The notes beneath the pieces are model-generated. The model worked only from the letters and a program-made list of their open reading frames with translations. It was not told where the DNA came from and did not search any database. From Clostridia bacterium (GTDB taxonomy: Bacteria > Bacillota > Clostridia > Oscillospirales > CAG-272): a DNA stretch of 10,187 nt. The stretch spans positions 1-10,187 of the forward strand of contig JAFTMU010000052.1 in the NCBI GenBank assembly GCA_017452215.1, given 5' to 3'. Both the position numbers and the translations under genes were made by a program. Every line of letters starts with the position of its first letter. Position 1 is the stretch's first letter. Below are positions 1,729-10,184 of the stretch, one piece after another.

Positions 1729-1742
1729 TGTTTTTCTCCGTT

Positions 1743-1758
1743 TGTTGAAAATTCAACA
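1743..1758. promoter_or_regulatory. Predicted Crp/Fnr-type operator, site 1
   Basis: The site reads TGTTGAAAATTCAACA, a dyad with the 5-6-5 geometry (TGTTG-N6-CAACA) shared by Crp/Fnr-family operators. It is nearly identical to 3575-3590, and the similarity extends outside the dyad: 22 of 23 bases match between 1741-1763 and 3573-3595. It ends 21 bp before the ldhA -10 hexamer, centring near -41.5, and lies about 9-24 nt downstream of the predicted start of the regulator's leftward transcript. Binding by the adjacent regulator is inference. Confidence 0.75.
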
Positions 1759-1772
1759 GAAATTCCACTGCA

Positions 1773-1801
1773 ATTATACTATAATGGGGTCAGAAAGTCA
1801 A
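1773..1801 (-). promoter_or_regulatory. Sigma-A promoter of the Crp/Fnr-sfsA transcript
   Basis: On the minus strand TTGACT (1801-1796) is followed after 17 bp by TATAAT (1778-1773), giving a predicted start near 1766. This promoter needs no activator by its consensus match. The dyad at 1743-1758 falls just inside the transcribed region, where a bound protein would block escape, so self-repression is likely. Confidence 0.75.
1780..1785 (+). promoter_or_regulatory. -10 element of the ldhA operon promoter (activator-dependent type)
   Basis: TATAAT lies 21 bp after the dyad at 1743-1758 with no good -35 hexamer at the right distance; the dyad occupies that place. This is the layout of a class II activated promoter. 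The predicted start is near 1792, giving a leader of about 25 nt. The element overlaps the leftward promoter of the regulator, so the two promoters should compete. Confidence 0.65.
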
Positions 1802-1816
1802 GAGGAGGAATAAAAA

Positions 1817-2854
1817 ATGAAAGTTGCTTTTTTTGATGCAAAGCCCTACGACAAGCCCTCGTTTGAAAAATACGGGGAGGCGTATGGGGTCAGGTTTAAA
1901 TTTTTTGAAGCCAAGCTCAACGCTGACACTGCCGAGCTTTGTCGGGGCTTTGATGCCGTTTGCGCATTCGTCAACGACACCGTGGATGCTCCCGTGATCG
2001 ACAAGCTCCATGCCTTGGGCGTGCGTGTTCTTGCTCTGCGCTGCGCAGGCTTTAACAACGTGGATATGAAATACGCTTACGGGAAGCTGCACGTGCTGCG
2101 TGTGCCCGCCTATTCCCCTTATGCGGTTGCCGAGCATGCTATCGCCCTGCTTTTGACCTCGATCCGCCGTATCCACAAGGCATATATCCGCTCCAAGGAG
2201 TTCAATTTCAGCCTGACGGGACTTACGGGCTTTGATCTGCACGGCAAGACCATTGGTGTGATCGGAACGGGAAAGATCGGACGGGTGCTCATTGACATCT
2301 GTCGAGGCTTTGGCATGAAGATCCTCGCCTATGACAAGTTCCCCGTTCGGGAGCTGCAGCGGGACGGTACCGTTCGCTACGTTGACACCGACGAGCTCTT
2401 TGCGCAGAGTGATATCATCTCCCTGCACTGCCCCCTCACCGAGGACACCTACCACATGATCGATGCCGCCGCTCTTGAAAAATGCAAAAAGGGCGTGATC
2501 CTGATCAACACCTCCAGAGGCGCTTTGGTAGATGCCGAGGCGTTGCTGAACGGGATCAAATCCAGGCATGTGGGAGCTGCGTGCCTAGACGTTTACGAGG
2601 AGGAATCCGATCTGTTCTTTGAGGACAACTCGGGGCATATCATGGAGGATGACACCCTTGCCCGTCTGATCTCCATGCCCAACGTGATCGTGACCTCTCA
2701 CCAAGCCTTTTTGACCGAGGAGGCACTGGAAAACATCGCCGAAACTACGGTGACGAATATCGTTGGATTTTTGAAGAACGATCAATGCCCCAACGAGCTC
2801 TGCTATCGCTTTGACGACGTTGCGGATTGCAAGGACGGCAAATGCTTTTCGTAA
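1817..2854 (+). CDS. ldhA: Fermentative D-lactate dehydrogenase (NAD-dependent)
   Basis: The 345-residue protein reduces pyruvate to D-lactate with NADH in the cytoplasm, regenerating NAD during fermentation. It follows the E. coli LdhA sequence closely throughout, including RCAGFNNVD (75-83), VPAYSPYAVAEHAIA (96-110) and NFSLTGLTGFDLHGKT (130-145). The Rossmann motif GTGKIG is at 150-155 and the NAD-selecting acidic residue is D173. The catalytic trio is R234 (NTSRG), E263 (VYEEE) and H295 (SHQAF), each one place before the E. coli equivalents R235, E264 and H296. A C-terminal tail of about 15 residues with two cysteines extends past the usual end. AGGAGG about 8 nt upstream fixes the start. 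It is the first gene of an operon with the ferredoxin-like gene 12 bp downstream and is predicted to be activated through the dyad at 1743-1758. Confidence 0.96.
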   Translation: MKVAFFDAKPYDKPSFEKYGEAYGVRFKFFEAKLNADTAELCRGFDAVCAFVNDTVDAPVIDKLHALGVRVLALRCAGFNNVDMKYAYGKLHVLRVPAYSPYAVAEHAIALLLTSIRRIHKAYIRSKEFNFSLTGLTGFDLHGKTIGVIGTGKIGRVLIDICRGFGMKILAYDKFPVRELQRDGTVRYVDTDELFAQSDIISLHCPLTEDTYHMIDAAALEKCKKGVILINTSRGALVDAEALLNGIKSRHVGAACLDVYEEESDLFFEDNSGHIMEDDTLARLISMPNVIVTSHQAFLTEEALENIAETTVTNIVGFLKNDQCPNELCYRFDDVADCKDGKCFS

Positions 2855-2866
2855 GGAGAAACTGTT

Positions 2867-3565
2867 ATGATCAGAAGAATGATAAAAATTGATCAAGAAA
2901 AATGCAACGGCTGCGGCGCTTGCGCTACCGCCTGCCACGAGGGAGCTATTGAAATGATCAACGACAAGGCGACCCTTGTCCGTGAGGATTTTTGCGACGG
3001 GCTTGGCGATTGCCTTCCCGCCTGTCCCGTGGGAGCCATCACTTTTGAGGAGCGAGAGGCGCCCTCCTACGACGAGGCCGCCGTTCACCGTGCAAAAATG
3101 CAACGCTCGGAGGCGACTCCCTGCGCTTGCCCCGGCACCCGTGCCAAAGCCATCACACGGGACGCCGCCCCCGCCCCCACGGAGCGCACCGGAGCTGCGC
3201 CAAGTCAGCTGATGCAATGGCCCTGCCAGATCAAGCTCGTCCCTCCCAATGCCCCCTATTTTGACGGCGCCAATCTGCTCATTGCCGCCGACTGCACGGC
3301 GTATGCTTACGGCAGCTTTCACGCCGATTTCATGCGCAATCACATTACGCTGATCGGTTGCCCCAAGCTTGACGAGGGAGATTACACCGAAAAGCTGACG
3401 CATATCATTCGGGAAAACGACATCAAAAGCGTCAAGATCCTTCGCATGGAGGTTCCCTGCTGTCAAGGGATCGAGAACGCCGCCAAGCGGGCGATTTTAG
3501 CCAGCGGAAAGTTTATCCCCTGGCAGGTGGTGGTCGTCTCCACCGACGGAAAAATTTTAGAATAA
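2867..3565 (+). CDS. Ferredoxin-like 4Fe-4S protein with Cys-rich C-terminal domain
   Basis: The 232-residue protein has an N-terminal bacterial-ferredoxin module. The first cluster motif is complete (C13, C16, C19, C23), though H24 replaces the usual Pro. The second is C43-x2-L46-x2-C49-x3-C53-P, so one of four ligands is missing and it may hold a 3Fe-4S or a labile cluster. Residues about 65-115 form an Ala/Pro-rich linker with C86 and C88. The C-terminal domain (about 118-232) carries C120, C143, C165, C198 and C199 in compact motifs (WPCQIKLVPPNAPYFDGANLLIAADC, IGCPKLD, EVPCCQGI). From memory, related proteins occur near hydroxylamine reductase (hcp) genes in Clostridia; no hcp is visible here. 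A role in electron transfer is likely, the partner unknown. AAGGAG 8 nt upstream supports the first ATG over M5. It lies 12 bp after ldhA and should share its transcript. Confidence 0.88.
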   Translation: MIRRMIKIDQEKCNGCGACATACHEGAIEMINDKATLVREDFCDGLGDCLPACPVGAITFEEREAPSYDEAAVHRAKMQRSEATPCACPGTRAKAITRDAAPAPTERTGAAPSQLMQWPCQIKLVPPNAPYFDGANLLIAADCTAYAYGSFHADFMRNHITLIGCPKLDEGDYTEKLTHIIRENDIKSVKILRMEVPCCQGIENAAKRAILASGKFIPWQVVVVSTDGKILE

Positions 3566-3574
3566 TTTTCATTT

Positions 3575-3590
3575 TGTTGAATATTCAACA
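3575..3590. promoter_or_regulatory. Predicted Crp/Fnr-type operator, site 2
   Basis: The site reads TGTTGAATATTCAACA, a perfect 16-bp palindrome and a one-base variant of the site at 1743-1758. It ends 21 bp before the ferritin -10 element, exactly as site 1 does before the ldhA -10. The shared flank (the following GAAAT) adds support. It implies that ferritin belongs to the same regulon as ldhA. Confidence 0.78.
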
Positions 3591-3608
3591 GAAATGGATC
3601 CATTTTTG

Positions 3609-3617
3609 TGGTATACT
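3609..3617 (+). promoter_or_regulatory. Extended -10 promoter of the ferritin gene
   Basis: TG at 3609-3610, one base, then TATACT at 3612-3617 form an extended -10. No -35 hexamer is present; the dyad at 3575-3590 sits centred 29.5 bp before the hexamer, near -41.5 from the predicted start at about 3624. No terminator hairpin is seen between the ferredoxin-like gene and this promoter, so read-through from ldhA is also possible. Confidence 0.68.
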
Positions 3618-3661
3618 GTATACAGAAAACAAAATCAACGCAATGAACGGAGGAAAATACA

Positions 3662-4195: not shown

Positions 4196-4230
4196 GGGGC
4201 TGTCTCAAATTTGCAATTTGAGACAGCCCC
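4196..4230. terminator. Long hairpin between the convergent ferritin and transporter genes
   Basis: A perfect 15-bp stem (4196-4210 with 4216-4230) closes a 5-nt loop, TTGCA. It lies between two converging genes and would serve either transcript. Neither side carries a clean T-tract: TTGCTGT follows on the plus strand and a C-run then TTGTT on the minus strand, so termination efficiency is uncertain. Confidence 0.7.
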
Positions 4231-5715: not shown

Positions 5716-5809
5716 AATGCGGACCTACATTCCGTGCCAAGGGCACGGAATGGGGCGAATCGGGGCTGCTACCCCAGCCAACAGAAAAGCCACCCGATGG
5801 GTGGCTTTT
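5716..5809. repeat. 94-bp repeat with tRNA-Gln 3' end, copy 1
   Basis: This copy differs from 5900-5993 at only two of 94 positions. It contains a 10-bp hairpin (5729-5738/5742-5751), then on the plus strand the last 15 bases of the tRNA-Gln body-plus-tail, CTGCTACCCCAGCCA, the same three-base ACA that follows the tRNA, and an 11-bp terminator hairpin at 5785-5809. It lies in the opposite orientation to the tRNA gene and far from any coding start. Reading frames through it are spurious. Confidence 0.85.
5785..5809. terminator. Bidirectional terminator hairpin after the XRE gene
   Basis: AAAAGCCACCC (5785-5795) and GGGTGGCTTTT (5799-5809) pair perfectly around GAT, with T4 on both strands. 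It is the first good terminator to the right of the XRE gene and is part of the 94-bp repeat. Confidence 0.75.
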
Positions 5810-5823
5810 GTAAGCGCAGGGTA

Positions 5824-5848
5824 TTCAAGTTCGCCTTGCGAACTTGAA
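5824..5848. repeat. Perfect 11-bp hairpin between the two 94-bp repeats
   Basis: TTCAAGTTCGC (5824-5834) and GCGAACTTGAA (5838-5848) pair perfectly around CTT. There is no T-tract. Another short dyad follows (GGTGT/ACACC at 5868-5881) inside a longer one (GAGCCG/CGGCTC, 5860-5898). The whole spacer between the repeat copies is therefore structured, but its function is unknown. Confidence 0.6.
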
Positions 5849-5899
5849 GATTTTTCGCCGAGCCGCTGGTGTGCAAACACCCCGACGGCTTTCGGCTCA

Positions 5900-5993
5900 A
5901 ATGCGGACCTACATTCCGTGCCAAGGGCACGGAATAGGGCGAATCGGGGCTGCTACCCCAGCCAACACAAAAGCCACCCGATGGGTGGCTTTT
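5900..5993. repeat. 94-bp repeat with tRNA-Gln 3' end, copy 2
   Basis: This copy is 184 bp from copy 1, with two substitutions. Its terminator hairpin (5969-5993) directly abuts the tRNA-Gln 3' end on the other strand, so the same hairpin serves as the tRNA terminator. The plus-strand tRNA fragment in this copy and the real tRNA 3' end are mirror images around that hairpin. Confidence 0.85.
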
Positions 5994-6012
5994 CTGTTGG
6001 CTGGGGTAGCAG
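5950..6012. repeat. 30-bp-armed palindrome spanning the tRNA-Gln 3' end
   Basis: Bases 5950-5979 pair with 5983-6012 around the 3-nt loop GAT, with a single C/C mismatch at 5968/5994. The inner 11 bp are a terminator stem with T-tracts. The right arm includes the last 15 nt of the leftward tRNA-Gln (CCA, discriminator, acceptor strand and part of the T stem); the left arm is an inverted copy of them. A transcript reading through could pair the tRNA 3' end with this copy instead of its own 5' end. Confidence 0.9.
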
Positions 6013-6072
6013 GATTCGGACCTACGAATGCCAGAGTCAAAGTCTGGTGCCTTACCGCTTGGCTATACCCCA
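5998..6072 (-). tRNA. tRNA-Gln (anticodon TTG)
   Basis: The minus strand folds as a complete 75-nt tRNA with encoded CCA. The acceptor stem is TGGGGTA/TACCCCA with discriminator G. The D arm is GCC/GGC around AAGCGGTAA. The anticodon stem CCAGA/TCTGG encloses CTTTGAC, giving anticodon TTG (Gln). The T stem GTAGG/CCTGC contains one G-T pair. The T loop reads TCCGAAT instead of TTCGAAT, so position 55, almost always U (pseudouridine), is C. Otherwise the structure is intact. A strong promoter lies 22 bp upstream, and a terminator hairpin follows three to four bases after CCA. The gene may be functional with an altered elbow, or at an early stage of decay; I lean to functional. Confidence 0.88.
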
Positions 6073-9912: not shown

Positions 9913-9914
9913 AC

Positions 9915-9955
9915 GGAGAGGTATCGAAGTGGTCATAACGAGGCGGGCTTGAAAA
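9915..9955 (+). pseudogene. Truncated tRNA-Ser copy (5' half)
   Basis: This stretch matches the first 41 nt of the intact tRNA-Ser (10096-10136) at 38 positions, with the same preceding AC. The D arm is identical, but homology stops just after the anticodon loop TGA. The anticodon stem can no longer pair, and no T arm or acceptor 3' strand follows; instead there is a 7-bp hairpin (9956-9962/9973-9979). It cannot form a tRNA. It starts three bases after the T-tract of the leader terminator. Confidence 0.8.
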
Positions 9956-10095: not shown

Positions 10096-10184
10096 GGAGG
10101 GTTATCGAAGTGGTCATAACGAGGCGGTCTTGAAAACCGTTTGCCTTCACGGGCGCGTGAGTTCGAATCTCACACCCTCCGCCA
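10096..10184 (+). tRNA. tRNA-Ser (anticodon TGA)
   Basis: This is a complete 89-nt class II tRNA. The acceptor stem is GGAGGGT/ACCCTCC, followed by discriminator G and encoded CCA. The anticodon stem GCGGT/ACCGT encloses CTTGAAA, so the anticodon is TGA (Ser). The long variable arm typical of tRNA-Ser (GCC/GGC-type stem) follows, then T stem GTGAG/CTCAC around a canonical TTCGAAT loop. The gene ends three bases before the end of the window. A truncated copy of its 5' half lies 181 bp upstream. Confidence 0.96.

Follow-up and report, generated by a model that had tools for sequence, protein, structure and literature searches.

A 10,187-nucleotide (nt) stretch of Clostridia bacterium DNA (contig JAFTMU010000052.1; hereafter the window) carries a gene for a Crp/Fnr-family regulator that is divergent from genes for a D-2-hydroxyacid dehydrogenase (ldhA), a ferredoxin, and a ferritin. 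Two almost identical palindromes lie in it, one ahead of the ldhA-ferredoxin operon and one ahead of the ferritin gene. Do these dyads belong to the adjacent regulator, and what does the regulator respond to? Comparing the locus with related genomes, we conclude that the dyads are probably operators of this regulator, which is HcpR-like and would activate class II promoters lacking a -35 element while repressing its own gene, with nitric oxide (NO) or oxygen (O2) as its most likely signal. The window is the entire contig C342 of a draft genome, G000 (1.76 Mb, 78.6% complete, 408 contigs).

Both dyads match TGTTGA-N4-TCAACA exactly, and 22 of 23 bases agree between positions 1741-1763 and 3573-3595. 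Each dyad ends 21 base pairs (bp) before a -10 hexamer (Table 1). When we looked for a -35 element 15-19 bp from the -10, the best hexamer at either promoter matched TTGACA at only 3 of 6 positions. These features had been reported in a preliminary description of the locus, and we confirmed all of them. A class II promoter has its activator site centered near -41.5 and no -35 element; taking the start as 7 nt past the -10, both dyad centers would fall at about this position. The window by itself is weak evidence, as 17 of 200 shuffles gave at least two matches with one mismatch or fewer. The loose pattern TGTTG-N6-CAACA occurs at four sites in the whole genome compared to two for a reversed control, so that it too proves little by itself.

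Across the genus, represented by 35 genomes including G000, TGTTGAANNTTCAACA occurs at 23 sites and the reversed pattern at none. All 13 genomes with an ortholog of the regulator (at least 63% identity) contain the dyad, compared to 1 of the 22 without one. In that genome, G013, the site lies at a MarR-type gene and belongs to a promoter class associated with Fe-alcohol dehydrogenase genes, which we treat below. Many of the genus genomes are incomplete, and absences are therefore soft. Thirteen of the 23 dyads are found between the regulator and a divergent operon, four precede ferritin or dehydrogenase genes (in G000, G016, G020, and G043), and six belong to the other promoter class.

To extend the comparison, we kept the best 80 of at least 587 relatives of the regulator from a scan of GTDB genomes. 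Of these 80, 61 have an exact dyad no more than 220 bp ahead of the regulator, and 69, including all 45 with at least 60% identity, have one with at most one mismatch. The remaining 11 comprise four dyads with two mismatches and seven with more, one of the seven at a contig edge. An alignment of the 69 sites on their dyads gives a fixed layout of dyad, 14 bp, and ATTATACTATAAT, and TATAAT is matched at 5 or 6 of its 6 positions exactly 21 bp past the dyad in 68 of them (the exception is locus L096). The -35 element is scarce here as well: the best hexamer 16-18 bp away matches at no more than 3 of 6 positions in 73 of 75 sites.

Searching 295 genomes from the order with 11 to 31 bp allowed between dyad and hexamer, we found 69 pairs of TGTTG-N6-CAACA and TATAAT. 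Of these, 49 are spaced by 21 bp and 20 are distributed over the other 20 spacings together, and the reversed pattern gave 6 pairs. Conservation in the genus, in the relatives, and across the order establishes the dyad as more than chance. The dyad is not randomly scattered and is present, in the main, upstream of the orthologs. This conservation supports the earlier proposal that the adjacent Crp/Fnr protein is the predicted binder at the head of a shared regulon, and the fixed 21-bp spacing supports a class II position near -41.5 of the predicted start.

A feature that the preliminary description did not mention is that site 1 lies a short way downstream of the promoter predicted for the regulator itself. 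In the aligned sites, a conserved block on the reverse strand is aimed at the regulator, with TATAAT at positions 15-20 past the dyad and TTGA(C/T)T at positions 38-43, 17 bp apart. Among 75 sites facing a regulator, 67 have the reverse -10 (at least 5 of 6 matches); among 15 sites that lack a divergent regulator, the ferritin promoter of the window being one, none does. For the reverse -35 (at least 4 of 6 matches to TTGACA), the counts are 53 of 75 and 1 of 15, and the two elements occur together in 45 of 75 and 0 of 15. With the predicted regulator start near 1766 on the minus strand, dyad 1 spans approximately +9 to +24 of the regulator transcript. Since a bound dimer would sit on early transcribed DNA of the regulator gene, it should shut that gene off, and we hypothesize that one dimer probably activates its target outward and represses its own gene.

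In a fold search with the regulator, Porphyromonas gingivalis HcpR (9day) was among the best matches, with a query TM-score of 0.75, the highest among the 50 matches listed, and the nearest solved relatives by sequence and fold include this protein. A MAFFT alignment to CRP places R193, S194, and S198 at CRP positions 180, 181, and 185. The text of Rodionov et al. (2005, PMC1274295) describes these three positions as contacting DNA, with 180 and 181 correlating with the bases read, and gives Ser at 181 for the HcpR proteins of Clostridioides difficile and Clostridium thermocellum. Of the 80 relatives, 79 retain both R193 and S194 (one gap), and position 198 is mostly Ala. The alignment thus rejects the recognition helix with Ser at all three base-reading positions that had been proposed at first; the residue at 180 is Arg. 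Helix residues and operator bases also go together: arm position 6 is A in 88 of 89 sites of regulators with G195-L196, and T, G, or mixed in 16 of 16 sites of those with A195-M196. This table includes near-duplicates, and 12 of its 117 rows were uncounted, 10 having no site with one mismatch or fewer and 2 having other residues.

What the regulator controls can be read from its neighbors. We counted genes present in stretches of up to 6 kb per side of the 80 regulator loci, several ending at contig edges, as presence in the stretch and not as operon membership. A ferredoxin gene is present at 67 loci, a flavodiiron protein gene at 42, a dehydrogenase gene at 13, hcp at 11, and a ferritin gene at 10. 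The ferredoxin gene, not ldhA or ferritin, is the regulator's most constant partner, and ldhA and ferritin are variable members of the regulon. In each of the 15 genus genomes with the ferredoxin, a regulator of the family either adjoins the ferredoxin gene or heads its operon; 13 of these regulators are the orthologs, and the other two are those of G013 (42% identity) and G014 (36%).

The ferredoxin had been called unusual, a description that does not hold: a homolog search with this FrdX-like protein gave at least 7998 matches. A fold search found no match at E 0.001 or better with a model of mean predicted local distance difference test (pLDDT) score 67. The C-terminal domain, PF27217 in precomputed hits, is poorly modeled and has an invariant Cys143 and the motifs GCPKLD and PCC. 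The dehydrogenase is probably a D-lactate dehydrogenase, as judged from its best-matching models. The flavodiiron protein has beta-lactamase-like, flavodoxin, and flavin-reductase domains and a short rubredoxin domain, and looks like class H as outlined in the consulted portion of PMC6033852. All 11 Hcp loci belong to relatives at 50-57% identity, including Oscillibacter ruminantium and Aminicella lysinilytica, and 10 of them also have the ferredoxin. At the loci of O. ruminantium GH1 and A. lysinilytica (L153 and L154), the dyads are of the variant forms TGTTGG/CGTTGG.

Because this pair of regulator and ferredoxin is accompanied in relatives by Hcp or a flavodiiron protein, we prefer NO/O2 defense to a regulon for fermentation and iron storage. 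The earlier proposal, which placed D-lactate fermentation, the ferredoxin, and iron storage under one regulator, is upheld as to the shared regulon, but its theme reads better as HcpR-type NO/O2 defense. We fetched 14 of the order-wide sites for their targets, and eight are on this theme (G110, G164, G157, G216, G219, G226, G252, and G312). Dehydrogenase and/or flavodiiron genes follow the site in G157, G216, G219, G226, and G312 (the last with a spacing of 22 bp), a ferredoxin gene and then hcp follow a 21-bp site in G252, and a DUF1858 protein is encoded behind the site in G110 and G164.

The main alternative keeps the same binder and sites and takes the signal to be metabolic redox state or a fermentation product, making the regulon one of fermentation and iron handling. 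The position of ldhA as first gene of the window operon and the cNMP-binding-type domain of the regulator, which could take a small ligand, would both suit this. So would a site in G178 (L277, contig C37), where TGTTGAAATTTCAACA lies 21 bp ahead of TATAAT, upstream of genes for a TM1266-like hydrogenase-system regulator and two radical-SAM proteins, a setting that fits redox or hydrogen metabolism; this site is possibly a real regulon member. Near the 80 regulators, however, the 13 dehydrogenase genes stand against 67 ferredoxin, 42 flavodiiron, and 11 hcp genes, the last two encoding NO/O2 enzymes. Moreover, the dehydrogenase gene is adjacent to the flavodiiron gene in four congeners that lack the ortholog (G001, G003, G010, and G042), and the dyad, with up to one mismatch, is present in none of the 14 dehydrogenase upstream regions examined in genomes without the ortholog. 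Both findings suggest that the two genes were recruited to the regulator; the dehydrogenase is found in 26 and the flavodiiron gene in 30 of the 35 genus genomes, regulator present or not. We consider a metabolic signal unlikely.

A further possibility is that the regulator binds the dyad and mainly represses its target promoters until the signal arrives. Crp/Fnr proteins can act as repressors, and at site 1 the promoter of the regulator itself is probably repressed. Yet the target promoters have no -35 element and carry the site at class II distance, and C. difficile HcpR acts as an activator (PMC12915319), which together make repression of the targets improbable.

It is highly improbable that the dyad is an operator of Rex or another repressor, with the Crp/Fnr gene a bystander. 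Only three positions separate either window site from the Rex consensus TTGTTAANNNNTTAACAA, and Rex controls lactate dehydrogenases in other bacteria. The Rex N-terminal domain is nevertheless found in 33 of the 35 genus genomes and the dyad in 14, the dyad tracking the Crp/Fnr ortholog in 13 of 13, and promoters without a -35 element and with a fixed site near -41.5 fit an activator. We rejected Rex as the binder since the distribution of its domain does not match that of the dyad. Chance repetition of a short palindrome, which the window shuffles would permit, has a negligible probability and is refuted by all of the cross-genome conservation.

Several observations weigh against operators of an HcpR-like regulator of NO/O2 defense. 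The first concern targets. In the genus, hcp is nearly absent, with one partial match in 35 genomes that does not lie at the regulator, and we rejected hcp as a present regulon member there because this lone match is unlinked. Five of the 14 fetched order-wide targets are off theme or unclear, and one more is a protein without a Pfam match. Besides the G178 site, the sites set aside have a short NRDD-like frame in G281, membrane proteins (by eye) in G315 and G150, and a spacing of 22 bp in G246. The protein without a Pfam match, of 104 amino acids (aa), is encoded behind a 21-bp site in G269 (L284 656-970), and a 104-aa protein 84% identical to it adjoins the ferredoxin gene in O. ruminantium (L153 4851-5165). 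The dehydrogenase lacks dyad control in 3 of the 13 ortholog genomes. Ferritin is preceded by a separate dyad in only 3 of the 13, two of which have nearly identical regulators, and in G004 TGTTGA-N4-TCAACA lies far upstream of ferritin and off the 21-bp place. Separately, G043 (L075, contig C16) has another copy of the ferritin gene, flanked by frames that look by eye like desulfoferrodoxin and rubredoxin, and a partial hcp frame is close by. The flavodiiron frame of G000 itself is unlinked (contig C17), has one stop listed, and has no dyad ahead of it.

Other points of this kind concern recognition. The covariation of helix residues and operator bases is not significant on the tree, which has only two to three independent changes (p 0.5). 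As an operator, TGTTG-N6-CAACA is distinct from HcpR sites of the TGTGA, TTGAC, and GTAAC types, a comparison limited to the consensuses in the text of PMC1274295, which leaves the C. difficile/C. thermocellum motif outside it. Our literature search, which took in the main text of PMC1274295 but neither its figures nor RegPrecise, did not find this operator motif in print.

In addition, 6 of the 23 genus dyads are of a different promoter class beside genes of the Fe-alcohol dehydrogenase family; four of the six loci also have a gene called as MarR-type. These contain pairs of palindromes like ACTTGTTGA-N4-TCAACAAGT, approximately 42 bp apart and some with a mismatch (L001 1885-2413 on contig C291 of G000, L056, L060, L062, L065, and L067), and they apparently form a separate regulon. 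The other two loose-pattern dyads of G000, both on C291, are accordingly not members: they are longer, paired palindromes beside MarR-family and Fe-alcohol dehydrogenase-like genes. Because this class shares the core, the core alone cannot identify the regulon and would mislead a motif scan. At two further loci, L210 and L214 (G021 and G047), TGTTGGATT(C/G)ACAACA lies 21 bp (counted by eye) ahead of TATAAT, upstream of a flavodiiron gene. These genomes hold only 32-33% identical homologs of the regulator, suggesting that paralogous regulators may share the promoter design.

The sensor domain is the last point of divergence. In the part of PMC12750200 used here, the heme ligand of P. gingivalis HcpR is Met68, with His149 as a possible second ligand. 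At the position aligned with Met68, position 64, 40 of the 80 relatives have Arg, 34 Gln, and 6 another residue, and at position 149, 63 have Glu and 17 another residue. No relative has Met at 64 or His at 149, a ligand criterion that is known from one protein and may not define the family. With the heme-ligand positions not conserved, the NO-heme mechanism of P. gingivalis HcpR cannot be carried over. The relatives instead keep Cys28 (80 of 80), Cys89 (78), Cys119 (78), Cys123 (79), and His126 (78). Some of these residues are missing in more distant relatives (30-41% identity) that have the dyad design (L291, L295, L296, and L309).

The sensor may thus be new, having lost the heme-ligand positions and kept four cysteines, and a cysteine-held iron-sulfur (Fe-S) center would be a good guess. 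We advance only tentatively, as somewhat doubtful, the more specific idea of an order-wide HcpR-like branch in which NO or O2 would be sensed by a metal center on Cys28, Cys89, Cys119, and Cys123, perhaps with His126, rather than by heme. This branch would use a one-site, two-way switch and, near the window, would have exchanged Hcp for a flavodiiron protein, D-lactate dehydrogenase, and ferritin as targets.

We propose that NO or O2 alters the sensor domain and that the regulator dimer then binds TGTTG-N6-CAACA near -41.5, where it would recruit RNA polymerase to promoters with a -10 but no -35 element in the class II manner. Site 1 would drive the ldhA-ferredoxin operon and site 2 the ferritin gene. 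At site 1, the dimer would also damp the regulator's own consensus-like promoter (TTGACT-N17-TATAAT), resulting in a switch that activates outward and limits itself. By forming lactate, the dehydrogenase would provide an outlet for reduced nicotinamide adenine dinucleotide (NADH) once the Fe-S enzymes that act in pyruvate metabolism fail, and the ferritin would hold released iron. The FrdX-like ferredoxin would carry electrons, perhaps to the unlinked flavodiiron protein; in relatives, the flavodiiron protein or Hcp would remove NO or O2.

On this reading of the dyads as operators of an HcpR-like regulator, two look-alike sites on one contig lead to a predictable regulon in many uncultured gut Clostridia, and the promoter grammar of dyad, 21 bp, and TATAAT is strict enough for members to be found by pattern search. 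It suggests a way in which strict gut anaerobes may switch on NO/O2 defense and a possible reason for D-lactate production rising under inflammation-type stress. With four conserved cysteines in the regulator, the sensing chemistry looks unlike the heme model of P. gingivalis HcpR.

Table 1. Genes and predicted promoter elements of the ldhA-ferritin region (window positions)
Feature	Position	Strand	Remarks
Crp/Fnr-family regulator, HcpR-like, 219 aa	1069..1728	-	Pfam cNMP_binding and HTH_Crp_2 over cut-off; fold match to P. gingivalis HcpR (9day)
Dyad 1, TGTTGAAAATTCAACA, predicted regulator operator	1743..1758		Center near -41.5 relative to ldhA and near +16.5 relative to the start predicted for the regulator
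-10 TATAAT, regulator's own predicted promoter	1773..1778	-	Back to back with the ldhA -10
-10 TATAAT, ldhA-ferredoxin operon	1780..1785	+	21 bp past dyad 1; no -35; predicted start near 1792
-35 TTGACT, regulator's own predicted promoter	1796..1801	-	17 bp from its -10
D-2-hydroxyacid dehydrogenase (ldhA), 345 aa	1817..2854	+	Pfam 2-Hacid_dh and 2-Hacid_dh_C; best NCBIfam models are D-lactate dehydrogenases, under cut-offs
FrdX-like ferredoxin	2867..3565	+	N-terminal 2x[4Fe-4S] region and C-terminal domain PF27217 (precomputed hits) with invariant cysteines
Dyad 2, TGTTGAATATTCAACA, ferritin promoter	3575..3590		
-10 TATACT, ferritin promoter	3612..3617	+	21 bp past dyad 2; without opposing promoter; predicted start near 3624
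Ferritin, 170 aa	3662..4174	+	Pfam Ferritin; NCBIfam non-heme ferritin under cut-off

Elsewhere in the window, a strong inverted repeat, GGGGCTGTCTCAAATT..AATTTGAGACAGCCCC, lies 3′ of ferritin at 4196-4230 and lacks a clear run of T. Positions 5716-5993 hold a direct repeat of 94 nt (98% identical, spacing 184), which ends beside a tRNA-Gln gene on the minus strand (5998-6072). The tRNA-Ser gene at 10096-10184 has its start partially copied (43 nt, 93%) 181 bp ahead of it, at 9913-9955.

Our literature search found no Crp/Fnr regulon joining D-lactate dehydrogenase, ferritin, and a flavodiiron protein, and a survey of binding sites in C. thermocellum mentions neither Crp nor FNR in its main text. 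Among known systems, FNR has an N-terminal cysteine cluster, CX2CX5C, plus a distal Cys; the regulator here has no FNR-type N-terminal cluster, its conserved cysteines being those at 28, 89, 119, and 123. The half-site TGTTG also differs from TTGAT of FNR and TGTGA of Crp, and the promoter here is back to back with that of the regulator gene. The likeness to class II Crp/Fnr promoters lies in the dyad near -41.5 of the predicted starts in place of a -35 element, at the same 21-bp spacing in both window sites.

Rex has a similar palindrome, but its presence does not track the dyad. In Staphylococcus aureus, the expanded Rex regulon, with ldh1 among its members, is needed for NO resistance, as given in the consulted part of PMC8593685. 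That regulon likewise puts a lactate dehydrogenase under stress control tied to NO resistance, but through another regulator, with repressor logic, and in a respiring host.

The closest likeness is to HcpR regulons, with a Crp/Fnr regulator beside a ferredoxin-like gene, hcp in distant relatives, Ser at 181, and positive control expected. In C. difficile, HcpR raises frdX and hcp approximately 200-fold on NO, according to the portion of PMC12915319 used here. The window ferredoxin is FrdX-like and may correspond to the published FrdX. The genus here differs in being nearly without hcp and having flavodiiron protein, dehydrogenase, and ferritin genes in its place, and in keeping four cysteines rather than the heme-ligand positions of P. 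gingivalis HcpR. Judged from sequence, the regulon would be an HcpR-like system of predicted NO/O2 defense whose sensor pattern is unusual, whose promoters follow a strict design, and whose targets have been exchanged.

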